From Devosia sp. A16 (GTDB lineage: Bacteria > Pseudomonadota > Alphaproteobacteria > Rhizobiales > Devosiaceae), in the NCBI RefSeq assembly GCF_001402915.1, contig NZ_CP012945.1, positions 3,263,501 through 3,327,500 on the forward strand: a stretch of 64,000 nucleotides of DNA, given 5' to 3'. The position numbers and the translations under genes are program-made. Positions 4,756 through 37,643 of this stretch are shown piece after piece; position 1 is the stretch's first letter; each line of letters opens with the position of its first letter. The notes under the pieces are model-generated. The model saw only the letters and a list, made by a program, of their open reading frames with translations, was not told the DNA's origin and did not search any database.

Positions 4756-6117
4756 CTAGCTGCGCTCGAACCCGCGCTTCAACTCCCAATCGGTGACGCG
4801 TCGGTCATACTCGAACTGCTCCCAGTTGCCGGTGTGCACATAGTGGCCGATCACCGGCTCGCCGAAGGCTTCGCGCAGCATGGTTGAATTCTGCATGGCG
4901 GCCAGTGCGTCGCGCAGCGTCTTGTGCACTTCGCGCAGTTTTTCGCCGACATAGGCGTCGCCGGTGAAGGCCGGCTCCAGCGGCAGCTTGTCCTCGACGC
5001 CCTTGAGGCCCGCTGCGATCAGCGCCGCATAGGCGAGATAGGGGTTGAGGTCGGCCCCGCCGATCCGACATTCGACCCGCACCCCCTTGGTGTTCTCGCC
5101 GCAGAGCCGGAAGCCGGCCGTGCGGTTGTCCGACGACCAGATCGCCTTGGTCGGCGCGAAAGTGCCGGCCTGGAAGCGCTTGTAGGAGTTGATGAACGGC
5201 GCGAGGAAATAGGTGATGTCGCCGGCATAGGTCAGCAGCCCCTGCATGAAGTGCTTCATCAGGTCGGACATACCGAGCTGGTCCTTGCTGTCGACGAAGG
5301 CGTTCTTGCCGCCCTTGGCGAGGCTCATGTGGATGTGGCTCGACGAGCCGGCGAGCCCGAAATCCCACTTGGCCATGAAGGTAATGGCTTTGCCGTGGGC
5401 GTGCGCGATCTCCTTCATGGCGTTCTTCATCACCACATGCCGGTCCGCCATGGTCAGCGCGTCGGCATAACGCACGTTGAGCTCTTCCTGCCCCGGGCCC
5501 CATTCGCCCTTCGAATTCTCCACCGGAATGCCGGAAGCCTGCAGTTGCCGCCGCATGGCGCGCAGCACCCCTTCCTCCTTGGTGGTCTGGAAGATGTGGT
5601 AATCCTGGATGTAGTAGCCGGCGGTGGTGAGGTTCTTGTAGCCCTTGTCCCAGGCCGAGCGGAAACTCTCGTCGAACAGGTAGAATTCCAGCTCCGAGGC
5701 GAAGTTCGCCGTCAGCCCGAGCTTTTCCAGCCGCTTCAGCTGCGCCTTGAGGATGGCACGGGGGCTGTGCGGGATCGGCTCGTGATGATGATGGTCGACG
5801 AGGTCGGCGAGGATGATGGCCGTGCCCTCGAGCCAGGCCGCCTTCATCAGCGTCGTGAGGTCCGGCTTCATGACGAAATCGCCATAGCCCTTGGCCCAGT
5901 TCGCCGCCTCGTAGCCCGGCACCGGTTCCATGTCGATGTCGTTGGCGAGCAAGTAGTCGCACCCATGCGTCTCGTCGATCGCTCCATCGAGGAAGAACTC
6001 GGCCTGGAAGCGCTTGCCGATCAGCCGGCCCTGCATGTCGGGGAATGCCACCAGCACGGTGTCGATGGTGCCGGCTTTCACGTCGGCCTTCAGTTGATCG
6101 AGCGTATAGGCGGCCAT
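4756..6117 (-). CDS. Glutamine synthetase family gamma-glutamyl-amine ligase
   Basis: A 453-residue protein of the glutamine synthetase fold, closer in visible segments to gamma-glutamylpolyamine synthetases (PuuA type) than to housekeeping GlnA: GGADLNPYLAYAALIAAGL, SSDNRTAGFRLCG and GSSSHIHMSL. These enzymes use ATP to join glutamate to an amine. The ATG at 6117 follows AGGGAG; the longer open frame to 6345 encodes Arg-rich nonsense. Flanking genes (ethanolamine-type permease upstream, aldehyde and alcohol dehydrogenases downstream, amidohydrolase first) suggest an amino alcohol such as ethanolamine as the amine (inference). A polyamine substrate is the alternative. Confidence 0.88.
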   Translation of the reverse strand: MAAYTLDQLKADVKAGTIDTVLVAFPDMQGRLIGKRFQAEFFLDGAIDETHGCDYLLANDIDMEPVPGYEAANWAKGYGDFVMKPDLTTLMKAAWLEGTAIILADLVDHHHHEPIPHSPRAILKAQLKRLEKLGLTANFASELEFYLFDESFRSAWDKGYKNLTTAGYYIQDYHIFQTTKEEGVLRAMRRQLQASGIPVENSKGEWGPGQEELNVRYADALTMADRHVVMKNAMKEIAHAHGKAITFMAKWDFGLAGSSSHIHMSLAKGGKNAFVDSKDQLGMSDLMKHFMQGLLTYAGDITYFLAPFINSYKRFQAGTFAPTKAIWSSDNRTAGFRLCGENTKGVRVECRIGGADLNPYLAYAALIAAGLKGVEDKLPLEPAFTGDAYVGEKLREVHKTLRDALAAMQNSTMLREAFGEPVIGHYVHTGNWEQFEYDRRVTDWELKRGFERS

Positions 6118-6148
6118 GGCGCACTCCCTGAACTCAGCGTTCTTGGTC

Positions 6149-6190
6149 GCGCTTCGAAGCGGAAAAGTCTGCAACTCTTCCCGAAAGCGC
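6149..6190. repeat. Imperfect palindrome in the permease-GS gap
   Basis: Arms GCGCTTCGAAGCGGAAAAGT and ACTCTTCCCGAAAGCGC are partly complementary. It lies in the 131 bp between the permease stop and the glutamine-synthetase-like start. It may lower read-through or adjust relative mRNA levels; no obvious T tract follows on the minus strand. Confidence 0.4.
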
Positions 6191-6248
6191 TCAGGTGGAC
6201 TTGTTATCGTTGGAAAAGGGGCCGCGAGCGATCGCGGCCCCGATGTCG

Positions 6249-7772
6249 CTATTTCTTGGCGTGCTCGAGCGCGAACTCTTCCTCCGGCGAGAGGATGAGC
6301 TTGTGACGGCCGACCAGCCCGAAATAGACGATGCCGACGGCGCACCAGACCACCACCCAGATCACGCCCTTGAAGAAGTTCGGATCCTGGATCTGGTAGC
6401 CGAGCGTCACCGCCGCGATGATGATCGTCAGCACCGCTCCGGGGACGCCCACCGGGCTCTTGAACGGCCGCTCGATGTTCGGCAGCTTGCGGCGGAGGAT
6501 GATGAAGCTCACCGCCTGCGCGATGTAGCTCAGCATCGCGCCGAACACGGCCATGTTGAGCAGCACAGAGCCGATGATGTCGTCACCCAGTTGCGTCTCG
6601 CCGCTGCCGCCGCCGCCATTGGCAAACCAGATCACCAGCATGACGCCGAGCCCCAGCAGCGAACCCGCGATCATCGCGAGGTGTGGGGTCTTGTAGGTGG
6701 CATGGGTTTCAGACAGCGCCGACGGGAAGTAGCCGGCGCGGCTCAGCGAATAGACCTGTCGTCCCTGCGCATACAAGATGGTGTGGAACGAGGCGACGAG
6801 GCCGATCAGCGCCACCACGCCGAAGGCGGAAGCGGCCCAGCCGACATCGGGGAACATGGCGCGGATACCGTCGAGCGCCGGCTCCAGCGAAGTGCCCAGC
6901 GCGAATGAGCCGACCCCTGCGATCGAGGGATTGAGCAGCACCACGAGAAAAGCCGAGAGCGCCAGCGTGGCAAAGCCCAGCATGATGCCGCGCGGCATGT
7001 CGCGCTTCGGATCGACCGACTCCTCGGCTGCCAGCGGCACTTGCTCGATGGCGAGGAACAGCCAGACCGCAAAGGGCAGGGTGGCGAGCACGCCGCCAAA
7101 GCCCTTGGGGAACCACTCGCCGCCGCCTTCCGGCAGCTCCGAGCCATCCGGCGCGATGTTAAGCGCCCAGCGCGAGAAGTCGATGTGCCCGAAGGCGCTG
7201 ATGTAGAAGAAGGCGAGGCCCGCCAGCGAGATCAGCGTTACCGCCAGCGTCACCTTGTAGCTCAGGGCTACGCCGAAAATGTTGAGCGCCAGGAAGATCG
7301 CGTAGAAGACGACCCATAACACCGGGTAGAGCGAGGTATCGAGCCCGGTGATCGAGCCGAAATACGCCGAAATGAACGTACAGATCACTGCCGGGGTCAG
7401 CACGTATTCGACGTTCTCGAACAGCCCCGTGACGAAGCCGCCCCATGGCCCCATCGAACTGCGCGCGAACGAGTAGGCGGCGCCGGTATGCGGCAGCGCC
7501 GGGCTCATCTCGGCGATCGAGAAGGTCAGCCCCAGATACATGATGGCAATGATGATGCCGGCGACCAGCATGCCGCCCCAGCCGCCGGTGGCAAAGCCCA
7601 AATTCCAGCCCGAGAAGTGCCCCGAGATCACCGCGCCGACGCCAAGCGCCCACAGCGACCAAATGCCGGCATAGCGCTGCAGGCCGCGTTTCTCGAAGTA
7701 GCTCTTGTCGCGGGTGGCGTATTTCACACCACCCGCCTGCGTGCCCGTGGCACTAGACGGAATGTCAGCCAT
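6249..7772 (-). CDS. APC-family amino acid/amine permease, ethanolamine permease-like
   Basis: A 507-residue integral membrane transporter with about 12 predicted helices. The N-terminal region (GVWS/GIWSLWALGVGAVISG type, FSIAEMSPALPHTGAAY, SMGPWGGFVTGLFENVEYVLTP) matches what I recall of ethanolamine permeases (Eat) within the amino acid-polyamine-organocation superfamily. The ATG at 7772 follows an excellent AGGAGGG; a TTG one codon earlier is ignored. It overlaps the end of the upstream amidohydrolase gene by 8 bp, so translation is probably coupled. It would import the amine used by the downstream gamma-glutamyl ligase. Confidence 0.88.
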   Translation of the reverse strand: MADIPSSATGTQAGGVKYATRDKSYFEKRGLQRYAGIWSLWALGVGAVISGHFSGWNLGFATGGWGGMLVAGIIIAIMYLGLTFSIAEMSPALPHTGAAYSFARSSMGPWGGFVTGLFENVEYVLTPAVICTFISAYFGSITGLDTSLYPVLWVVFYAIFLALNIFGVALSYKVTLAVTLISLAGLAFFYISAFGHIDFSRWALNIAPDGSELPEGGGEWFPKGFGGVLATLPFAVWLFLAIEQVPLAAEESVDPKRDMPRGIMLGFATLALSAFLVVLLNPSIAGVGSFALGTSLEPALDGIRAMFPDVGWAASAFGVVALIGLVASFHTILYAQGRQVYSLSRAGYFPSALSETHATYKTPHLAMIAGSLLGLGVMLVIWFANGGGGSGETQLGDDIIGSVLLNMAVFGAMLSYIAQAVSFIILRRKLPNIERPFKSPVGVPGAVLTIIIAAVTLGYQIQDPNFFKGVIWVVVWCAVGIVYFGLVGRHKLILSPEEEFALEHAKK

Positions 7773-28448: not shown

Positions 28449-30401
28449 TCACTCGCTCGCCAGCGCCACCACCGGATCGAGCCGAGCCGCCGATCGCGCC
28501 GGCATGAAGCCGAAGAGTACGCCGATCAGGCTCGAAGACACGAACGCCGCGATAATCGTCGCCGGCGAGTAGATGAAGCTGAGCCCGCTCACCAGCCTCT
28601 CGACGCCGAAACCGATCGCCAGCGACAGCAGCACGCCCACCGCGCCACCGATCAGGCACACCAGCACCGCTTCGATGAGAAACTGCTGCAGGATGTCGCC
28701 CTGTCGCGCGCCGACCGCCATGCGGACGCCGATCTCGCGGGTGCGTTCACGCACCGACACCAGCATGATGTTCATCACCCCGATGCCGCCGACGATCAGC
28801 GAGATCACCGCGATGGCCGAGATCAAGAGCGTCAGCGTCTGCGAGGTCGACTGGATGGTCTCGCGAATGGTGTCGGTGTTCTGCAGGCTGAAATCCACCG
28901 TGCCGTGCCGCTGCTCGAGCAGCGCCTGGATCTCGGCCTGCGCCTCGGTGACATCGGCGCTGTCGGCGATGCGCACCGTGATGGTCGAAAGCCAGCTCTG
29001 CCCCAGGATCCGCGACATCGCCGTGGTGTAGGGCATCCAGATGCTGATCGCGTTCGATTGCGGACCGAAATTATTGGTGCTCGCGGCCACCACGCCGATG
29101 ATCCTCAGTGGCACATTGCCGACCAGCACCACCTGGCCCACGGCGTCTTCGCCATTGGTGAACAGCGTGTCGCGGGCAGTGGTATCGATCACCGCGACCT
29201 GCGCCAGGGAACTGGTACTGGCCGCGTCGAACGCCGCGCCCTCGACGAAGCTGCGATTGTTCACCCGGAAGTAGTCCGGCCCGACACCCTGCACCTGTGC
29301 GGCGGCGCTGACATTGCGATAACGGGCCTGGCCGTTGCTCGAGACCTGCGGCGTCACGCTGTCGGCATAGCTTTCCGCCGCGATCGCCGCCGCGTCCGCC
29401 GGCACCAGGGTGCGGATCGCGTCGCGCCGCCGGTCGGCGGCGTTGGTGCCGGGCAAGACGTTGATGGTGTTGGTGCCGATCGAACTGATCCGCTCGAGCA
29501 CCGCCTGCTGGCTGCCTTGTCCGAGCGCCACCACCGACACCACCGAGGCGATGCCGATGATGATGCCGAGCATGGTGAGAAAGGTGCGCAGCCGGTGGCT
29601 CGACAGCGCCCTGAGCGCCATCTGGAACGCCTCCCCAACCCGGTCGAGCGCCTCGCGCCAGCGCGGGATCCGCCTGATCGTTTCGGCTGCCTTCCGCTCT
29701 GGCGCCGCGGCGTCGTCCTTGCGGCGGTCGGCGACGATCATCCCGTCGCTCAATTCCACGGTCCGGTCGGCCTGCGACGCGACGGTGGGATCGTGCGTCA
29801 CGATGATGATGGTGTGGCCTTCGGCGTTCAGCTCCTTGAGCAACGCCATCAGCTCCTTGCCGCTGTGCGAGTCGAGCGCACCGGTCGGCTCGTCCGCGAG
29901 GATGATGTCGCCGCCATTGATCAGGGCCCGGGCCACGCTGACCCGCTGCTGCTGCCCGCCGGACAGCGCGTTCGGCCGGTGCGTCAGGCGTTCGCCCAGA
30001 CCCAGCCGCTCCAGCAACTGATGGGCCCGCTCGCGCCGCGCCTGCTTGCGGGCGCCGGCATAGATCGCCGGCACTTCCACGTTTTCGAGCGCATCGAGAT
30101 CGGCCAGCAGCTGGTAGCGCTGGAAGATGAAGCCGAAATGCTCACGCCTCAGTTCGGCAAGTTCGTCCGGTGCGAGCCGCGCCACATCGCGCCCGGCCAA
30201 CCGGTATTCGCCGCTCCAGCCGTTATCGAGGCAGCCCAGCACGTTCATCAGCGTGGACTTGCCGGAGCCGGATTGCCCGATGATCGCCACCATCTCGCCG
30301 GCGGCGATGTCGAGGTCGATATCCTTGAGCACGGTGATGCTCTCCGCGCCGATCGGATACTCCCGGCGCAGCTTCCGGATGGAGATCAGCGGTTCGGCCA
30401 T
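28449..30401 (-). CDS. macB: MacB-type ABC transporter, fused ATPase-permease
   Basis: A 650-residue inner-membrane ABC protein. The N-terminal ATPase (about 1-235) has Walker A GQSGSGKST, signature LSGGQQQRV and Walker B IILADEPTGALD. Then a first helix near residue 275, a large periplasmic MacB core domain, and three C-terminal FtsX-type helices (GGIGVMNIMLVSVRERTREIG motif). MacB pumps macrolides, toxins or peptides by mechanotransmission with MacA and an outer-membrane channel, which is not seen here. It starts four bases after macA. Being close to a peptide-modification cluster it might export that product (inference, opposite strand). Confidence 0.93.
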   Translation of the reverse strand: MAEPLISIRKLRREYPIGAESITVLKDIDLDIAAGEMVAIIGQSGSGKSTLMNVLGCLDNGWSGEYRLAGRDVARLAPDELAELRREHFGFIFQRYQLLADLDALENVEVPAIYAGARKQARRERAHQLLERLGLGERLTHRPNALSGGQQQRVSVARALINGGDIILADEPTGALDSHSGKELMALLKELNAEGHTIIIVTHDPTVASQADRTVELSDGMIVADRRKDDAAAPERKAAETIRRIPRWREALDRVGEAFQMALRALSSHRLRTFLTMLGIIIGIASVVSVVALGQGSQQAVLERISSIGTNTINVLPGTNAADRRRDAIRTLVPADAAAIAAESYADSVTPQVSSNGQARYRNVSAAAQVQGVGPDYFRVNNRSFVEGAAFDAASTSSLAQVAVIDTTARDTLFTNGEDAVGQVVLVGNVPLRIIGVVAASTNNFGPQSNAISIWMPYTTAMSRILGQSWLSTITVRIADSADVTEAQAEIQALLEQRHGTVDFSLQNTDTIRETIQSTSQTLTLLISAIAVISLIVGGIGVMNIMLVSVRERTREIGVRMAVGARQGDILQQFLIEAVLVCLIGGAVGVLLSLAIGFGVERLVSGLSFIYSPATIIAAFVSSSLIGVLFGFMPARSAARLDPVVALASE

Positions 30402-30405
30402 CGCA

Positions 30406-31626
30406 TCAGCCTCCCCGCCCGAACCCGCCGACCGGCGGGCCGCCGGTGAGGATATTCCGGGCGCCGCCGCCCTGTCCGTTGCCAGTGCGGGCCGTCGGCG
30501 CGGCTGCCGTGGCGTTGACCACCAGATCGCCCTCGCTGAGGCCGTCCAGCACCTCTGCCGTCACGTTGTTGTTGAGCCCGACGGTGACCTTCTTCGGCTC
30601 GGGCGCCTGCTTGTGCTGGTCCCAGACCTGCACCGTGTAGCTGCCGTCGCGGCCCTTGCGCCCCAGCACCGAGGCGGGCACGGTCAGCACGTCGTCGGCC
30701 GATTTGAGCACGATGGTGACCTGCGCGGTCATCGAGATGCGCAGCTTGTGGTCGGGATTGTCCACGTCGAACAGGCCATTGTAGTAGACGGCGGTGCTCG
30801 ACGAACTCGATGACGTGTCGTCCGAGGCGATCGAATCCGGCGCCGGCTCGACCGCGCGCAGCGTCGCGCTGATCCGGGTGTCGGGGTCGCCGAGGATGGT
30901 GAAGTAGACCTGCTGCCCCGGCTCCACCCGCGGCACGTCGGCCTCCGAGATTTCCGCCTTCACCACCATCTTGTCGAGGTTGGCGAGCTTGACGATGGTC
31001 GGCGACGAATTATTGGCATTGACCGACTGGCCGACTTCGACCGACACCGCGACGACCGTGCCGTCCGACGGCGCCACGATCTTGGTGCGATCGAGGTTCA
31101 ACTGCGCGGCCTCGACGTTGATCTGTCCCTGCTGGATCTGCGCTTCGATGGCCTGCAACTGTCCCTCGGCGGTCTGTACCGCCAGTTGCGCCGTCTGCAG
31201 GTCGGCGTCGGAAATCAGCTTCTGCGGGCTGAGCTTTTCCGCCCGCTCCAGCGCCGTCTTCGCCTGGCCGAGATTGGCGGTCTGGATGGTCTTTTGCGCC
31301 TCGGTATTGGCCAGCGCCGCTTGCGCCGCCTTGACCGCGTTCTCCTGGTTCAGCGAGTCGATCTCGGCGATCACGTCGCCGGCCTTGACCTCGTCGCCCA
31401 GCGCGACATTGAGCGTCTTGATCCGGCCCGAGACCTCCGCGCCGACACTGACCAGCGAACTCGCCTGAATGACGCCCGAGGCGAGCACGGTCTCCTGCAC
31501 GTTGCCGCGCGCCACGGCCGTCGTCCGCGGCACCTCGTCCTTGGCCGGGGCGCTGAACACCAGCCAGCCGGCGCCGGCCGCACCGAGCAGAACCACCAGG
31601 CCAATCCACTTCCACCACCGCTTCAT
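30406..31626 (-). CDS. macA: MacA-type periplasmic adaptor (membrane fusion protein)
   Basis: A 406-residue adaptor of the HlyD/RND membrane-fusion family working with MacB. Start at 31626 is chosen for AGGTG before the ATG and for placing KRWWKWIGLVVLLGAAGAGW as the N-terminal anchor; upstream ATGs are possible. The barrel/lipoyl part (SGRIKTLNVALGDEVKAGDVIAEID), a Gln/Ala-rich coiled-coil hairpin (about 100-190), and KIVAPSDGTVV follow. An unusual run of six Ser with flanking Asp/Thr and a Gly/Pro-rich tail are present. Confidence 0.92.
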   Translation of the reverse strand: MKRWWKWIGLVVLLGAAGAGWLVFSAPAKDEVPRTTAVARGNVQETVLASGVIQASSLVSVGAEVSGRIKTLNVALGDEVKAGDVIAEIDSLNQENAVKAAQAALANTEAQKTIQTANLGQAKTALERAEKLSPQKLISDADLQTAQLAVQTAEGQLQAIEAQIQQGQINVEAAQLNLDRTKIVAPSDGTVVAVSVEVGQSVNANNSSPTIVKLANLDKMVVKAEISEADVPRVEPGQQVYFTILGDPDTRISATLRAVEPAPDSIASDDTSSSSSSTAVYYNGLFDVDNPDHKLRISMTAQVTIVLKSADDVLTVPASVLGRKGRDGSYTVQVWDQHKQAPEPKKVTVGLNNNVTAEVLDGLSEGDLVVNATAAAPTARTGNGQGGGARNILTGGPPVGGFGRGG

Positions 31627-31805
31627 CGCCGCACCTGCAGAGCCCATTTTCCCATCGGACATAAAGTAGACTGCCGGCATCAAGAAGTCGCATGAGGGCT
31701 TGGTAAGGTGGATGAATTCTTCGCAAGGTCGCTCAGTCGGTCAGCCAACTGTCAGCCGGCTCGACCTATTATGTCGGGACCGCGGTTCAGGCGCCCGAAG
31801 CACCG

Positions 31806-32031
31806 ATGCCCCGTTACACCGTCACGCTCTATGACTACCGGACCAGACCGCCCACTGTCCGCCTGCCGCAGACTGTCGAGGCAACGGAGCCGATGGCGGC
31901 CGCACGTCAGTTGACCCGACGAGCCTCTGGAATTGAACGGGCGCATGGCCAATCTGGCTGCCGAAGTCAAGCGCTTCGAAGGCAGTCAGCTCAGGCAACG
32001 CGTGATGCTTTATCGCAGGGGCCGGGCTTAA
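31806..32031 (+). pseudogene. Small gene broken by a one-base frameshift
   Basis: The frame from ATG 31806 reads sensible protein for 37 codons (MPRYTVTLYDYRTRPP ... AAARQLT). After the CCC at 31915-31917, the +1 frame continues equally sensibly (DEPLELNGRMANLAAEVKRF ... MLYRRGRA) to a stop at 32029-32031. Removing one C gives a coherent 74-residue protein that I cannot name. It may be a real pseudogene, a sequencing error, or rarely a programmed shift. It lies directly before the peptide cluster, same strand. Confidence 0.6.
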
Positions 32032-32110
32032 GCAGGTTGCGCCACACTCAGACTCTGCTAGCTTGCAGCTACCCTGCTGTTTGAGCAGCGGAATTTTTTT
32101 GAGGCATACT

Positions 32111-32203
32111 ATGAAGAAGACCTACTCCAAGCCGCTGCTGGTCAAGCAGCAGAAGCTCATCGCCATCACTGCCGAGCCGATCTCGAGCAAGCCGGTAACC
32201 TGA
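32111..32203 (+). CDS. RiPP precursor peptide 1 (lasso-like leader)
   Basis: A 30-residue peptide with GAGG seven bases before ATG. Residues Y5, P8, L10, L16 and T20 match the spacing of lasso-peptide leaders (Y-x2-P-x-L-x5-L-x3-T). The threonine at the penultimate leader position predicts a cut after residue 21, giving the 9-residue core EPISSKPVT. No Asp/Glu at core positions 7-9, so no lasso ring is possible. It is one of three near-identical leaders in a row with different cores, followed by an RRE protein and a B2-type leader peptidase gene. Confidence 0.8.
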   Translation: MKKTYSKPLLVKQQKLIAITAEPISSKPVT

Positions 32204-32313
32204 CCCGGAGTCGCCGGGGCATCGCTCCGGCCGCTTCTGGTAGCAGCAGTCCCGGAGTTTCGGGGCCTGTCGGTTGACGTCGTGGCGCCTTGGGGGCGCC
32301 TATGGGGAAGACA

Positions 32314-32415
32314 ATGAAGAAGACCTACACCAAGCCTGCTCTCGTCAAGGAGCAGAAGCTTACCACGATCACTGCGGCTCCCATTTCCAGCAAGGGGAAT
32401 CCGCCTCCCCCGTGA
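32314..32415 (+). CDS. RiPP precursor peptide 2 (lasso-like leader)
   Basis: A 33-residue peptide after GGGGAAG. Leader residues Y5, P8, L10, L16 and T20 are the same as in precursor 1. The predicted core after residue 21 is the 12-residue APISSKGNPPPP, sharing PISSK with precursor 1 but ending in four prolines and with no acidic residue at all. The 110-bp gap before it holds GC-rich hairpins, including GGCGCC/GGCGCC shortly upstream, which may set the relative level of each peptide. Confidence 0.8.
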   Translation: MKKTYTKPALVKEQKLTTITAAPISSKGNPPPP

Positions 32416-32540
32416 TCGAACCCGACGAGAGGGCAGGTGCCTGATAGCAGGAAGCAGATGCCGACTGTCCAGGGTTTCTTGCCCGAGCAGGGCTTGCTAT
32501 TCTGTGTCGGTTCAACACGGACAGACATGGGAGAGCGATT

Positions 32541-32630
32541 GTGAAGAAAGCCTACACCAAGCCCACTCTCGTCAAAGAGCAGAAGCTCGCCGCGATTTCC
32601 GCGGCCTCAAGTAACGTCAAGCCTGTGTGA
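32541..32630 (+). CDS. RiPP precursor peptide 3 (lasso-like leader)
   Basis: A 29-residue peptide from a GTG start with GGGAGAG six bases before. Leader residues Y5, P8, L10 and L16 are kept; position 20 is Ser in place of Thr. The predicted core is the 8-residue ASSNVKPV. Together with the other two it shows a constant leader and a variable short core that keeps two adjacent Ser and one Lys, the pattern expected if Ser and Lys are the modified residues (inference). Confidence 0.78.
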   Translation: MKKAYTKPTLVKEQKLAAISAASSNVKPV

Positions 32631-32688
32631 CTATGCGGGGCCGGATGCCGGCCCCGCACATCCTGCTGACTACGATTCTGGTGTGTAA

Positions 32689-32958
32689 ATGGACGCAGTG
32701 TACCGCCTCGGCGACGAAGTCTCGTTCGAACCGGTGGGGGAGGGCGCCGTCATTTTGCTGCTCGGCAGCGGGCAGCTCTATTCGTGCAACGACACCTCGC
32801 TGGCTTTCCTTCGGCACCTCGATGGTGTCCGGGATGTCGAGGCAGTGGCGCACCGCATGGCCGACGAGTTCGAGGTCGACGTCGCCACACTTGCCGACGA
32901 TTTGCCTGAACTGATCGCCGGGTTGGTCGCGGAAGGCATCATCGTGCATGCCGCATGA
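32689..32958 (+). CDS. PqqD-family RiPP recognition element protein (lasso B1-like)
   Basis: An 89-residue PqqD-like protein, the winged-helix RiPP recognition element that binds the leader peptide and presents it to the modifying enzymes. Typical segments are GEGAVILLLGSGQLYSCNDTS and a C-terminal helical part with ELIAGLVAEGIIV. In lasso systems this is the separate B1 protein. Starts 58 bp after precursor 3 and overlaps the next gene by 11 bp. Confidence 0.85.
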   Translation: MDAVYRLGDEVSFEPVGEGAVILLLGSGQLYSCNDTSLAFLRHLDGVRDVEAVAHRMADEFEVDVATLADDLPELIAGLVAEGIIVHAA

Positions 32959-33412
32959 ATCAACAGGCGGCGGATCGCCAGACCGACTGACGTTCCGGCT
33001 ACGCCTCTGGATCGCTGCGCGAACGCTGCCCGCGCGCATCGCCGGGCGAGAGTTTTCGCAGATCCTTGCCGATGTCTCATCGGTGCCCCCGAACAGCTGG
33101 CCGCATTTTTCCGTGCCTTACATTGCCCGGGTCGTCCGGCGTGTGACCCGCTGGCCCATCCTGATGCGCAACAACCGGTGCCTGCGCTCCGGGCTGCTGG
33201 GTTTCGCCGCCTTGCGGCGCTGTGGCTACGAGCCGCGCCTGCATTTTTCCGTCGATCGCAAGTCGATCGGTCGCTCCAGCCTCTCGGCGCATTGCTGGGT
33301 GACGCTCGACGGGATCGAGGTCATCAATGCACGTATTCCCGGTCAGGTGCAGATTCATGTGCACGCCGCTCCGGTATCCGGACCGGCGGAACCAGGCGGA
33401 GCCAGGGTTTGA
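32948..33412 (+). CDS. Lasso-type B2 leader peptidase (transglutaminase-like)
   Basis: A 154-residue member of the transglutaminase-like family of lasso B2 proteins, a cysteine protease that removes the leader. The Cys is in NNRCLRSGLL (near residue 77), the His in SAHCWVTLDG (near 113) and the Asp is probably that of LDG; the intervening RRCGYEPRLHFSV matches the usual B2 stretch. Length fits stand-alone B2. It overlaps both neighbours, consistent with one translationally coupled operon. Confidence 0.82.
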   Translation: MPHESTGGGSPDRLTFRLRLWIAARTLPARIAGREFSQILADVSSVPPNSWPHFSVPYIARVVRRVTRWPILMRNNRCLRSGLLGFAALRRCGYEPRLHFSVDRKSIGRSSLSAHCWVTLDGIEVINARIPGQVQIHVHAAPVSGPAEPGGARV

Positions 33413-34404
33413 TCCAGAAGTTCTTCGATCTGCAGGGCGCGTCGTTGCGTGTTACGGCGATCACGCCGGTGCTGGTGGATTTCTTCGGCCGCATCTTCGC
33501 CGGCCGCTCGCGGCCACTGCCGACGGCCCCGTTGGCCTACGGCCTCACGATCAGCTCCGGCGAGCCGCTCACGATGCCGGCTGGAACCGAACCGCTCTAT
33601 CAGGGGCCGATCCTCGACGAAGGCGAAGCCTGCTTCTGGCAGGCAACTGAAGGACGCGTCCTCAGCTTTCCCGACGTCATCTCGCTCACCCTCTCGGACA
33701 CCGCGCGCGAGGCCACGATCATCGTCGCTCCCGGGGCCGAGGAACGCATCGTCATGACCTGCGGGCAACTCGCCCTGCAGGCGGCGCTGTCGGCGGCCAA
33801 CCAGTTCCTGGTGCATGCCGCCGGGCTGACCTTGCCCGATGGACGCGTGGCGCTGATCTTCGGCCGCAGTGGCGCGGGCAAGACCACTTCTACCCTGGCG
33901 CTGGCGGCGGGCGGCCTCGGTCTTTGTTCCGATGATGCCATGGCTTGCAGTGTTGCGGGCGAGCGTCCTACGGCCTGGGGCATGCCCAGAAGCCTGAAGG
34001 TGCATCGCCACACGGCTCAGATGTTGCCTTGGGTAGAGCCGCTGCTGGTTGGCGACTGGAGCGCCGAGGACGAGCGACAGGTCACCCTGGCATCGCTGCG
34101 AAATACCGTCACCGTCGAGCCGATCGCGCCACGCGAGATCGCGGCTGTCTTCCTGCTCGATCGCAGCGACGCAGCGACCAGCCGGTGCGAGCCCGTGGCC
34201 AAGGCCGAGGTGCTGGCGCTGGCCGCCGCCGATAACGTACGTTCCACCCGGGTGGGTGTGCCGGCAGGCGAGCGGGAGCTGTTCAGACGGCTGGGCGAGT
34301 TGGTCCGGGCCGTACCCGCCTATCGGTTGTCTGCCGGATCGCGCCCCACCGATCTTGCCACGGTCATGCTGGCAGCCCTCAATATCGAGAAGATCGTCGC
34401 ATGA
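33409..34404 (+). CDS. HPr kinase-like P-loop kinase (RiPP tailoring)
   Basis: A 331-residue protein with an HprK-like kinase domain: Walker A FGRSGAGKTT near residue 152 and the catalytic-acid region LCSDDAMACSV. Homologues in lasso clusters phosphorylate a Ser of the peptide. A TTG at 33409 overlapping the previous stop, with GGCGGAG upstream, is the best start; no ATG fits. The N-terminal 130 residues are not recognised. The cores' conserved Ser pair are candidate targets (inference). Confidence 0.78.
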   Translation: MIQKFFDLQGASLRVTAITPVLVDFFGRIFAGRSRPLPTAPLAYGLTISSGEPLTMPAGTEPLYQGPILDEGEACFWQATEGRVLSFPDVISLTLSDTAREATIIVAPGAEERIVMTCGQLALQAALSAANQFLVHAAGLTLPDGRVALIFGRSGAGKTTSTLALAAGGLGLCSDDAMACSVAGERPTAWGMPRSLKVHRHTAQMLPWVEPLLVGDWSAEDERQVTLASLRNTVTVEPIAPREIAAVFLLDRSDAATSRCEPVAKAEVLALAAADNVRSTRVGVPAGERELFRRLGELVRAVPAYRLSAGSRPTDLATVMLAALNIEKIVA

Positions 34405-35372
34405 GCGCTGCCGAGCGCGATGCATTGCTGTGCCGCCTCGCCGACCCGGAGGCGCCCGCCGTCGCCGTCGATCTGGAGACCGTCGATCCGCTGCTCAAGC
34501 TGGCGCGGGACCACAATGTGCTGCCTGTGGTGACGCGAAAACTGGCAGCGCAGCGCAGCACTGCCGATCTGCGCGCCGCGCAGGATGAACTCACCCTGCT
34601 CGTGGGCCTCTCGATGCACCTGCGCGGCATCGCCGCCAAGGTCGATCGGCATATCGCCGAAAGGCAGTTGCACGCGGTGATCGTCAAGGGGCCGGTCTTC
34701 GCCCGGCAGATCTACCCGACGCCGTCGGACCGTCCGTTCACCGATATCGACATCATGGTTGCCCCATCTGCCCGCGGGCCGATCGGCGAACTCCTGACCG
34801 GACTGGGTTACCAGCTCTTCCGCAAACCGCTGCTCGACCACACCGAGCAGAACCAGGAGGAGAAGTGGATCCAGCCCGACATGGATGCGCTGCTCATCGA
34901 GGTGCATGGCAACCTGGTGCATTACCAGGGACTGCGCCGACGCATCAGCTTCGGCTACGACGAGCTCATGCTGAGCGGCAAGGGCGACCCGAGCGGGGCG
35001 CTGCCGCAATTTTTCGTGACCGTGGTGCACGCGGCGCTGGGCCACAAGTTTCACCAGTTGCGCCTCTTGGTCGATGTGCTGCAGGCTTGGCGCCGCCTCA
35101 CGCCTGATGACGCGGCGGCATTGCCGGAAATGGCGCGGCGCCTGGGACTCGCGCTCGAGGCACGCCTCTGCCTCGAGCTGATCGCCGAGCTGTTCGCGCT
35201 TCCGGCCGCCGCGGCCGCGGCCCGCCGCATTGTCGGCGGCACGCCCAGCGCCCTGGCGACCCGGCTGGTCGATGGAGCTGCGGTGCTCGCCGCACCCACT
35301 GCGTTCCTCTCCAAGGTTCGTCGCCACGCCTTCCGCGGGTTGCAGCGGATCGTGCCGCGAGGCGCCGGATGA
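34401..35372 (+). CDS. Nucleotidyltransferase family protein (RiPP tailoring)
   Basis: A 323-residue protein of the NTP_transf_5-type nucleotidyltransferase group often found beside lasso kinases. The active-site region has VIVKGPVFARQIYP and RPFTDIDIMV, with two metal-binding Asp in DID. In pseudomycoidin-type lasso clusters a homologue acts after the kinase on the phosphorylated Ser (known from memory, not checked). It overlaps the kinase by 4 bp (ATGA). The Ala-rich C-terminal third is helical. Confidence 0.78.
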   Translation: MSAAERDALLCRLADPEAPAVAVDLETVDPLLKLARDHNVLPVVTRKLAAQRSTADLRAAQDELTLLVGLSMHLRGIAAKVDRHIAERQLHAVIVKGPVFARQIYPTPSDRPFTDIDIMVAPSARGPIGELLTGLGYQLFRKPLLDHTEQNQEEKWIQPDMDALLIEVHGNLVHYQGLRRRISFGYDELMLSGKGDPSGALPQFFVTVVHAALGHKFHQLRLLVDVLQAWRRLTPDDAAALPEMARRLGLALEARLCLELIAELFALPAAAAAARRIVGGTPSALATRLVDGAAVLAAPTAFLSKVRRHAFRGLQRIVPRGAG

Positions 35373-36766
35373 TTTCGAACCTCTCGTTCACCGCCATGTT
35401 GCCCAGCAGCGCCGCCTTGGTCGACGTTCGGGCCGGCACGGCGCTGGACGCGGAAGGCATCGTTCGGCGGGTGGGCGCACGCGCGGCGGAGCTCGTGCGC
35501 CATGGCGTGACGCCGGGCGCCCGTGCGGTGGTGGCCGAAGTCAATCCGGTAGACTACCTGGTCGCCATCTTCGCCTGCTGGGAGGTCGGCCTCGTTGCGG
35601 TCGCAGTCAACCCCGGCCTCAGGCCGGAGGAATGCGAGACCGTGCTGCAGGCCACCGGCGCGTCGCTCTGGCTGGGGCCGCACCGGCCGGCCGTGGTCGC
35701 TGCGCAGTCGAGCGAGCCTCGCTCGCTGCGGCTTGATGACCCGGCGCTCATCCTGATGACCTCCGGCACCACCGGTCGCCCCAAGGGCATCGTGCACTCG
35801 GTGCGGAGCCTCTTCGCCCGCGCCAGCCTGAACATTGCCGAGATCGGTGCGGACGTGCTGCGCGACACGCTCTGCGTGCTGCCGGTATTCTTCGGCCACG
35901 GCCTCATTGGTAACGTGCTGACGCCGTTGCTGGCCGGTGGACGCGTGCATCTGTGGCCCAGCCCGGCGCTCGGCGAGCTCGCCGGCCTCGGTGGTTATGT
36001 CACCGGCCAAAACATCGGCTTCATGAGTTCGGTCCCCTCGTTCTGGAAGCTGGCGTTGCGTGTCTCCGCTCGCCCCGAGCCGGTGTTGCAGCGCGTGCAT
36101 GTCGGTTCGGCGCCACTATCGATCGAGCATTGGCGCGCCATCGCCGAGTGGTGCGGCACGCGCCGGGTGTTCAACATGTTCGGCATGACCGAGACCGCCA
36201 ACTGGATCGCCGGCGGCAGCCTCGACCAGGCCGAGGCCTGCGACGGTTTTGTCGGCCGGCCCTGGGGCGGCAGCGTCGCCATCGCCGATACGGCCGGCGG
36301 ACGGGGCGAGGTGCTGGTGCAGAGCCCCTCGATGATGCTGGGTTACTGGCAGCGCCCCGACCTAGACGCGGCCGCCTTTGTCAACGGCTGGTTCCGCACC
36401 GGCGACATCGGCGAGCTGGATGCCAAAGGCCACCTCATCCTGGTCGGCCGCAGCAAATCCGAGATCAATCGCGGGGGCATCAAGATCCAGGCCGAGGAAA
36501 TCGACATGCTGCTCGAGCGGCACGAGGCGATCGTCGAGGCCTGCGCCTTTGGCATCCCGGACGCCATCGCTGGGGAAGCGGTAGCCGCCGCCATCGTTCT
36601 CGCCGACGGCGCGGTGTTCGATCCTGAAGCGCTCAAGGCCTGGTGCCGCGCCCGCGTCCGCGATGAAGCCGTCCCCTCGAGGCTGTTCGCAGTGGCGGCC
36701 ATCCCGCGCAACGATCGCGGCAAGATCGTCCGCGCCGACGTTCGGGCGATGGTCGAAGCCCGATGA
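35369..36766 (+). CDS. AMP-forming acyl-CoA synthetase-like ligase
   Basis: A 465-residue adenylate-forming enzyme activating a carboxylic acid. The P-loop LMTSGTTGRPKG is near residue 129, with FNMFGMTETANW (A5), WFRTGDIGEL (A7), the hinge LVGRSKSEINRGG (A8) and the C-terminal catalytic Lys in PRNDRGKIVR (A10), so it looks active. It overlaps its neighbours by 4 bp on each side. Such a ligase is not part of ordinary lasso clusters; beside a GNAT it suggests acyl activation for peptide acylation (inference). Confidence 0.88.
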   Translation: MISNLSFTAMLPSSAALVDVRAGTALDAEGIVRRVGARAAELVRHGVTPGARAVVAEVNPVDYLVAIFACWEVGLVAVAVNPGLRPEECETVLQATGASLWLGPHRPAVVAAQSSEPRSLRLDDPALILMTSGTTGRPKGIVHSVRSLFARASLNIAEIGADVLRDTLCVLPVFFGHGLIGNVLTPLLAGGRVHLWPSPALGELAGLGGYVTGQNIGFMSSVPSFWKLALRVSARPEPVLQRVHVGSAPLSIEHWRAIAEWCGTRRVFNMFGMTETANWIAGGSLDQAEACDGFVGRPWGGSVAIADTAGGRGEVLVQSPSMMLGYWQRPDLDAAAFVNGWFRTGDIGELDAKGHLILVGRSKSEINRGGIKIQAEEIDMLLERHEAIVEACAFGIPDAIAGEAVAAAIVLADGAVFDPEALKAWCRARVRDEAVPSRLFAVAAIPRNDRGKIVRADVRAMVEAR

Positions 36767-37341
36767 GCAAATTGCGCGTCGGTCCGCTCGAAACCGAGCG
36801 CTTCATCCTGAAGCCGATGGGGATGATCGAGGCGCTGCGGGTGACCCATTCCTGGCGGCATGACCCCGATATCCTCAATGGCCTGCTGCAGACGTCCAAG
36901 CCCTGCTCGCTGGCATACTGGGTGCTGCGCGGGCCAATGCCGCGGAGCAGCAACCGCTTTGCCTTTGCCATCATTCCCAAAGGCGAGCACGTGGCGATCG
37001 GGGCGCATATGGTGCGGCTGCATGGCTATCGCTCCGCCTTCGGCACCGTCGCGGTGCATGATCGCGACTGGTGGGGCAAGAATGTCGTGGTCGAGGTGCG
37101 AGCCCGCCTGCTGAACTATTTCTTTGCTCACTGCGGCATCGAGCGCTTCTATGGCGTCGTCGACTCCCGCAACGTTGCCTCGATCTTCAGCTATCGCCGG
37201 CTGGGATTCGACCATGTCGGCACCTGGCATCGCCAGAAGCAGAACCCGGTGACCGGCGAGGTGATCGACTTCGTCAACTTCGAGTTGTTTCGCGACCAGT
37301 GGATGCGCGGCCCGTTCTGGCAGGCGCCTGATGGGCAGTAG
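36763..37341 (+). CDS. GNAT family N-acyltransferase (RimJ/RimL-like)
   Basis: A 192-residue GNAT acyltransferase starting with the RimJ/RimL-like LETERFILKP; acetyl-CoA-binding region WWGKNVVVEVRARLLNYFF, then RFYGVVDSRNVASIFSYRRLGF. GNAT enzymes transfer an acyl group to an amine. As the last well-supported gene of the overlapping operon and directly after an acyl ligase, it may acylate the peptide N-terminus or the conserved core Lys (inference). Confidence 0.85.
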   Translation: MSKLRVGPLETERFILKPMGMIEALRVTHSWRHDPDILNGLLQTSKPCSLAYWVLRGPMPRSSNRFAFAIIPKGEHVAIGAHMVRLHGYRSAFGTVAVHDRDWWGKNVVVEVRARLLNYFFAHCGIERFYGVVDSRNVASIFSYRRLGFDHVGTWHRQKQNPVTGEVIDFVNFELFRDQWMRGPFWQAPDGQ

Positions 37342-37438
37342 CGAGAAGGCCTGCGCGATCGTCGGCGACGCACTCAACTGCCCGAGCACGATCAGCATCG
37401 GCGCCATCCGGCGGGCGGCTGAGCTGCTGGGTGGTTAG
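37331..37438 (+). CDS. Possible micro-ORF at the end of the peptide operon
   Basis: A 35-codon frame starting 11 bp inside the GNAT gene (ATGGGCAGTAG). The product (SSEKACAIVGDALNCPS ... RRAAELLGG) vaguely resembles the first helix of an acyl carrier protein, but it lacks a DSL phosphopantetheine site. It could be a remnant, a small coupled peptide, or chance. Confidence 0.3.
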   Translation: MGSSEKACAIVGDALNCPSTISIGAIRRAAELLGG

Positions 37439-37490
37439 AGTGTGGGTTGACCCCACCGGCGCCGGTGCGGGCTGACCCCACCCCTGTCCC

Positions 37491-37566
37491 CTCTCCCTAA
37501 ACATGGGGAGGGAGACCAAAACACTGACATCGCGGTGGGCGTCTCCCTCCCCATGTTTAGGGGGAG
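37491..37566. repeat. Palindromic repeat, CTCCCTAAACATGGGGAGGG type
   Basis: Arms at 37491-37516 and 37541-37566 pair at 25 of 26 positions, with a 24-base loop; flanking ACCCCACCC and GGGTGGGGT also pair. A rhizobial-style extragenic palindrome in the convergent gap (37439-37643) after the peptide operon and metZ, where it may terminate both. Confidence 0.8.
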
Positions 37567-37643
37567 GGATCAAGGGTGGGGTCGCCAACCACCGGGTAGG
37601 AGGACCAGGCGCCTTGAAGGTGGCTTTGAAATGCGCGGCAACC

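Follow-up and report, generated by a model that had tools for sequence, protein, structure and literature searches.

Introduction

What does a gene cluster make when it combines the leader peptides, the recognition element and the leader peptidase of lasso-peptide pathways without a lasso cyclase? This question is raised by a stretch of 64,000 nucleotides (here, the window; C1:3263501-3327500) from the single-contig genome of 5.03 Mb of the soil bacterium Devosia sp. A16. Three precursors of ribosomally synthesized and post-translationally modified peptides (RiPPs), all with lasso-type leaders, are followed there on the same strand by genes for a RiPP recognition element (RRE), a B2 peptidase, an HprK-like kinase, an NTP_transf_5 protein, an AMP (adenosine monophosphate)-forming ligase and a GNAT acyltransferase. 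We consider it fairly probable that the cluster makes very short linear RiPPs that carry a phosphate on a core serine, are modified by the nucleotidyltransferase, lose their leader to B2 and, where the cluster is complete, receive an acyl group from a carrier protein. A preliminary description had likewise proposed short linear peptides from cyclase-free lasso parts, a view that is supported in part and needs four corrections, regarding its novelty, the origin of the kinase and the nucleotidyltransferase, a carrier protein and the independence of the acylation set. More tentatively, and as one joint claim, these clusters may form a Hyphomicrobiales RiPP family whose lasso-type RRE and B2 act on linear phosphopeptides 6-18 residues long, also acylated through a dedicated ligase, carrier and GNAT, with a loading step like that of nonribosomal peptide synthetases joining a phosphorylated lasso-type RiPP, and of which the window strain would be a natural carrier deletion mutant.

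The cluster and its precursor peptides

The genes in question are the following, with positions counted within the window:

32111..32203, + strand: precursor peptide 1, MKKTYSKPLLVKQQKLIAITA/EPISSKPVT (the slash marks the putative cut), putative core EPISSKPVT
32314..32415, + strand: precursor peptide 2, MKKTYTKPALVKEQKLTTITA/APISSKGNPPPP (slash as above), putative core APISSKGNPPPP
32541..32630, + strand: precursor peptide 3, GTG start, MKKAYTKPTLVKEQKLAAISA/ASSNVKPV, putative core ASSNVKPV
32689..32958, + strand: PqqD-type RRE (B1-like), PF05402, 48.3 bits
32948..33412, + strand: B2-type leader peptidase, NF033537 lasso_biosyn_B2, 49.4 bits (cut-off 33), and Transglut_core3 PF13471, 47.1 bits
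33409..34404, + strand: putative HprK-like peptide kinase, named from below-cut-off family matches and a structure-profile search
34401..35372, + strand: NTP_transf_5 nucleotidyltransferase, PF14907, 87.5 bits
35369..36766, + strand: AMP-forming ligase, candidate carrier-protein loader, PF00501 AMP-binding, 177 bits
36763..37341, + strand: GNAT acyltransferase, PF13302 Acetyltransf_3, 36.8 bits
37331..37438, + strand: carrier-protein gene remnant, the two ends still present, an in-frame loss of 38 codons having removed the phosphopantetheine Ser

The presence of the precursors and the six enzyme genes on one strand is confirmed, and their families bear out the earlier proposal that lasso-type leader, RRE and B2 parts are joined to kinase and acylation genes without a cyclase. 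Consecutive enzyme genes overlap by 11, 4, 4, 4 and 4 bp, as the 4-11 bp given in the preliminary description had indicated, and the last one overlaps a further small gene by 11 bp. This arrangement is not due to chance, since an identical gene order, precursors included, is found again in three other genomes of the genus, namely Devosia insulae (five precursors), Devosia sp. Root413D1 (five) and G016 (three), and in a metagenome-assembled genome of Notoacmeibacter (one). The full set of six enzymes is also present, arranged in two other ways, in two genomes from other families of the order, G215 and G102, which have five precursors and one, respectively. The clusters joining all parts are thus seven, in three arrangements; each of them has a leader-type precursor, and the six enzymes without any precursor, which had been named as the case that would speak against the proposal, were not encountered among them.

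The three window precursors share a lasso-type leader of about 21 residues, MKKxYxKPxLVKxQKLxxIxA, and purine-rich stretches immediately 5' of them are, by eye, candidate ribosome-binding sites. The cut was placed one residue past a T or S that, following the pattern of lasso precursors, was taken as the last but one residue of the leader, which gives window cores of 9, 12 and 8 residues. Applied by hand to the seven ligase-linked clusters, this yields a table of 21 precursors (leaving out two copies in L027 and an incomplete match in L018), in which some leaders of L017, L018, L019 and L028 have no T-A pair. The cores are 6-18 residues long, 20 of the 21 having 6-12, and every one of them has a Ser at position 3-6, which is compatible with a phosphate on a core Ser. 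The acidic residue at position 7-9 that the preliminary description had reported missing is indeed absent from all three window cores, as it is from 20 of the 21 tabulated.

The search for a cyclase

The genome is complete, and a search of it with PF00733 (asparagine-synthase family) found no lasso cyclase, in agreement with what had been claimed. Its sole match (30.3 bits) lies in an open reading frame that reads, by eye, as MnmA, and a lasso cluster served by an unlinked cyclase is therefore rejected for this genome. The comparison of gene order in relatives that had been proposed as a check gives the same answer: within the stretches fetched, no cyclase homologue is present at any of the 21 loci that combine RRE, B2, kinase and nucleotidyltransferase (the seven ligase-linked ones plus 14 further ones, from as many additional genomes). 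Of the features expected in a lasso cluster, the B2 peptidase and the discrete RRE are present at the window, and the cyclase and the acidic core residue are missing.

When 19 genomes were searched with the lasso cyclase model NF033535, ten gave a match at E 0.001 and nine did not, these nine including all three Devosia-type genomes searched. Only five genomes, all from genus g76, exceed the cut-off of 525 bits, and in these the cyclase and kinase genes lie 10-29 kb apart; the best matches in the other five (G102, G135, G215, G381 and G417) score 145-275 bits and may be ordinary asparagine synthetases. Each of the five g76 cyclases (L073-L077) has its own precursor, of core type GGGGNTATD and with a C-terminal Ser. 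Weakly similar kinase and nucleotidyltransferase matches accompany them, PqqD is found at four of the five loci (E at most 0.002), and no B2 could be recognized at any of the five. Because the cyclase there has its own precursor, kinase and nucleotidyltransferase matches and PqqD, the locus looks like a separate phosphorylated-lasso cluster beside the cyclase-free one.

Enzymes and proposed steps

The window RRE scores 36.7 bits against the lasso-specific PqqD model NF033530, under its cut-off of 70. In B2, Cys78 and His115 are invariant in all seven aligned sequences. The kinase reaches 24.6 bits with HprK_rel_A (cut-off 200) and 14.6 with Hpr_kinase_C (cut-off 33.3), and a profile search of solved structures returned four matches, all of them HPr kinases, at E 0.008-0.014. 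His136, Ser154, Gly157-Lys158-Thr159 and Asp175-Asp176 are invariant in the seven aligned kinases; compared with the motif reported for BsfK, His, Gly-Lys and Asp-Asp are kept, Thr replaces Ser, and some glycines are lost.

The nucleotidyltransferase also keeps two invariant residues, Asp115 and Asp117 (7/7 aligned). Its sequence gave no useful match among solved structures, and its model (mean predicted local distance difference test, pLDDT, 88.9) weakly resembles a minimal nucleotidyltransferase fold, the top fold match being at E 0.013 (MenT1, ANT(2'')-Ia) and none below 0.001. The GNAT sequence likewise had no match to solved structures at E 0.001, and its model (mean pLDDT 91.3) has the GNAT fold. 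SpeG polyamine enzymes rank first in the fold search, where RimL/RimJ-type N-terminal acetyltransferases and a lasso-peptide acetyltransferase, 9iy3 (rank 20), are among the other neighbours. Ratios of nonsynonymous to synonymous substitution rates (dN/dS) against D. insulae and Devosia sp. Root413D1 are 0.05-0.18 for all six enzymes, which are, judging from these sequence comparisons, under purifying selection. We saw no transporter in the conserved gene set, the systematic scan having covered the clusters themselves.

The genes, their families, the conserved residues, the linkage of precursors and enzymes across genera, the failure to detect a cyclase, and the carrier with its deletion are observed; from them we infer the chemistry of every step, the order of steps, where the leader is cut, the acyl group and the amine that accepts it. 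The PqqD-like RRE would bind the YxxPxL leader, the HprK-like kinase would phosphorylate a Ser found between core positions 3 and 6, the nucleotidyltransferase would put a further group on the phosphate (a hexose or a nucleotidyl group, by analogy), and the B2 cysteine peptidase would cut past the T-A (or S-A) pair. Since there is no cyclase, the peptide would stay linear. In complete clusters, the AMP-ligase would load an acid onto the discrete carrier protein, and the GNAT would transfer the acyl group to a peptide amine, most likely the new N-terminus, which we take as the likelier acceptor because three cores have no Lys. Both thioester loading and GNAT transfer are suggested by the discrete carrier encoded beside the AMP-ligase.

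Related kinases give the second step a precedent, as they are reported to phosphorylate core Ser3 of BsfA (PMC10368454) and of LppA (PMC13381572). For the nucleotidyltransferase the precedents diverge: PsmN of pseudomycoidin is described as needed for hexoses on phospho-Ser, a host glycosyltransferase not being excluded (PMC9266682), and LppN, produced in a heterologous host, made no difference (PMC13381572).

A carrier protein deleted in the window strain

All six enzymes of the preliminary description are present, but a conserved seventh gene, internally deleted in the window, had been missed. A small carrier protein bearing the motif W(D/S)S(L/I/M)xH, about 73-90 residues long (starts chosen by eye), is encoded in the 13 other ligase-GNAT loci fetched, including all six other complete clusters, of which it is the seventh conserved gene. 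It normally lies directly 3' of the GNAT gene; in L029 it is found between ligase and GNAT, and in L028 between GNAT and nucleotidyltransferase. The carrier alignment has 13 members, with the window remnant among them and L015 excluded, and the Pfam domain PP-binding (PF00550) is detected in 11.

The first 25 and the last 10 residues of the remnant align to the carriers of the relatives, and a Pfam search of it gave no match. PF00550 matches occur at three places elsewhere in the genome and nowhere within the cluster. With its carrier gene internally deleted, the window strain may therefore not run the acylation, and this arm of the pathway is probably impaired there.

Distribution of the two gene sets

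The 14 newly fetched kinase loci all have PqqD, B2, kinase and nucleotidyltransferase genes, and none has a ligase-GNAT-carrier set of the window type. Leader-type precursors are found in 11 of them (L059, L060, L064-L072), the single matches in L060, L064, L065 and L072 being weaker (in L060 a pattern only, in L065 a leader on a larger protein), so that 18 of the 21 loci with the four-gene core have such a precursor. In L061-L063 none was found by pattern searches, by conservation of small open reading frames over 3.5 kb 5' of PqqD, or by tblastn. AMP-binding genes near other kinase loci were also considered as part of the system, which is unsupported: that of L062 has an acetyl-CoA (coenzyme A)-synthetase N-terminal domain, and the proteins of L065, L066 and L069-L072 are 27-29% identical to the ligase of the window. 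The AMP-binding gene of L066 adjoins its precursors.

The ligase is present at E 1e-60 in 8 of 101 near relatives, all from the genus of the window. At class level, the kinase profile matches 2 of 385 genomes, the window's own and one with a weak partial match. The idea that loci with a stand-alone ligase set are hidden RiPP loci was rejected, as a leader is found in none of the seven.

Weighing the alternatives

Several observations weigh against the reading of an acylated, linear phosphopeptide. On the peptide side, G102 and G215, whose clusters are complete, have below-cut-off cyclase matches elsewhere in the genome (145 and 275 bits, against 525); the kinase owes its name to below-cut-off matches, with AAA_25 and ABC_tran scoring equally high; and one of the 21 cores, IKPVSGPVDF of L027, does have an Asp at position 9. 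On the acylation side, Lys occurs in 18 of the 21 cores and is absent from three, which makes the acceptor amine less certain; the closest solved relatives of the ligase are CoA ligases (oxalate-CoA, FadD5), and solved relatives gave no clear answer as to its substrate; and with the carrier deleted, the acyl step of this strain may be dead or use CoA or another carrier. Finally, ligase, GNAT and carrier occur without RRE, B2, kinase or nucleotidyltransferase in seven fetched loci (L013-L016, L029-L031), which corrects the earlier view of the acylation genes as bound to the peptide system.

It would follow from an alternative explanation, which we regard as unlikely, that these three genes are an unrelated passenger, an independent small-molecule acylation set sharing an operon with a phosphopeptide core. 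Besides the stand-alone loci and the 14 four-gene cores without the set, this agrees with the genomes of the stand-alone sets, six of which have no nucleotidyltransferase match, the seventh, G417, carrying a kinase-nucleotidyltransferase cluster about 130 kb off. On the ligase tree, four stand-alone Devosia copies nest by the RiPP-linked copy of Notoacmeibacter, and the association with peptide genes has therefore changed at least twice; the GNAT tree is poorly resolved. However, the two sets are joined in seven clusters of three arrangements, and the window genes overlap by a few bases. They also co-occur: in 397 order-level genomes, the ligase is found in 6 (E 1e-100), the kinase in 17 (E 1e-15), both in 4, and linked in 3, with a hypergeometric p of 3.3e-5 that becomes 5e-4 once the window's own genome is removed, values that assume the same 397 genomes for both profiles, ignore kinship and come from a subset of the order. 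With the two sets of G417 so far apart, counting linked cases only and excluding the window genome weakens this to p=0.014.

Even though leader, RRE and B2 of lasso type, the deleted carrier, and a one-base insertion in the upstream gene when compared with relatives could all be expected of a decaying lasso cluster that lost its cyclase, this explanation is largely refuted and we give it very little credence. The dN/dS values of the enzymes speak of purifying selection, none of the 21 loci has a cyclase homologue, and nearly all cores are both devoid of D/E at positions 7-9 and only 6-12 residues long, too short for a threaded lasso. Very short cores, a conserved set in which no exporter was seen and the leader carried by a Peptidase_S74 protein in L065 would suit peptides that become a cofactor-like small molecule, in the manner of pyrroloquinoline quinone, or stay in a larger structure and are not released. 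We find this improbable, and a single cofactor is at odds with the 3-5 different cores per cluster in four Devosia-type genomes. The acylated, linear phosphopeptide remains our preferred reading.

Relation to known systems

Among the closest known systems are the Linear Polyphosphorylated Peptides (LPP) of Bacillota, cyclase-free and published in 2026 (PMC13381572), next to which the "undescribed class" of the preliminary description is too strong a term, since linear, phosphorylated, cyclase-free analogues had been reported there. Both share a discrete RRE, an HprK-like kinase, an NTP (nucleoside triphosphate) transferase, a YxxP leader, the lack of a cyclase and, presumably here, a linear product. 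LPP clusters often lie near a phosphorylated-lasso (paeninodin) cluster (PMC13381572), a situation paralleled by the kinase core of g76. The differences concern the peptidase, SpI-like in LPP and B2 here, with no SpI-like gene in a scan of the window cluster; the MsbA-like exporter of the LPP core set, of which the window cluster has none; the leader, YxxPxVLxHQxIxFETxxS in LPP and YxKPxLVKxQKLxxIxA in the window, which does not contain the LPP motif; and the core, of 45 residues in the LPP case studied and 6-18 here. The ligase-carrier-GNAT set is an addition of the present clusters. By analogy, the window family may work like LPP and yet fall outside their definition, because the SpI peptidase, the exporter and the leader motif are not found. 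If the predicted chemistry holds, this family is distinguished by the B2 peptidase, the shorter cores and the acylation cassette; cyclase-free phosphorylated linear analogues were already known.

The kinase and nucleotidyltransferase, previously taken for a foreign addition, are instead a pair already described as tailoring phosphorylated lasso peptides (PMC9266682, PMC10368454). Paeninodin, pseudomycoidin and Bsf also have RRE, B2 and an HprK-like kinase acting on lasso-type precursors, and the nucleotidyltransferase is present in pseudomycoidin and Bsf; unlike the present clusters, where no cyclase was found, all three have a cyclase and ring-forming cores.

GNAT-type enzymes, the predicted role of the one encoded here, acylate the RiPPs microvionin, goadvionins, lipoavitides, selidamides and nostolysamides. 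These belong to lanthipeptide or proteusin pathways, in contrast to the lasso-type leader, phosphorylation system, dedicated ligase and free-standing carrier of the window family, and family searches of the window precursors gave no match to the NHLP or Nif11 leaders of selidamides and nostolysamide kin. In goadvionins, the peptide is reported to be condensed with a polyketide moiety; the acyl donor is reportedly carrier-bound. We found no description of a ligase-carrier-GNAT set combined with a phosphorylated lasso-type RiPP in the open-licence papers that our searches listed, nor, in those papers, of a dedicated ligase with a free-standing carrier for RiPP acylation. If the preferred reading is true, cyclase-free use of lasso machinery extends beyond Bacillota, and an ordinary B2 peptidase can serve instead of a signal peptidase. 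The seven small clusters would also offer a minimal substrate for probing the poorly understood lasso nucleotidyltransferase.

Neighbouring genes and further observations

The small gene 5' of the precursors (31806-32040) has one extra base compared with D. insulae and Root413D1, which shifts its frame. A divergent MacAB-like exporter pair (28449-31683; named by eye) adjoins the cluster on its upstream side, and L017 seems, also by eye, to hold the start of the same neighbour. Directly 3' of the carrier remnant lies a copy of a palindromic repeat of about 120 bp (37440-37600), with 74 matches in the genome, both strands counted. Next to the RRE-B2-kinase-nucleotidyltransferase cluster of L065, at 5857-6252, a lasso-type leader is joined to a domain of the Peptidase_S74 (endosialidase chaperone) family, and in L068 (5239-7551) three precursors with PVSGxP-type cores lie close to a DUF6065 protein that has a PqqD domain at its C-terminus.

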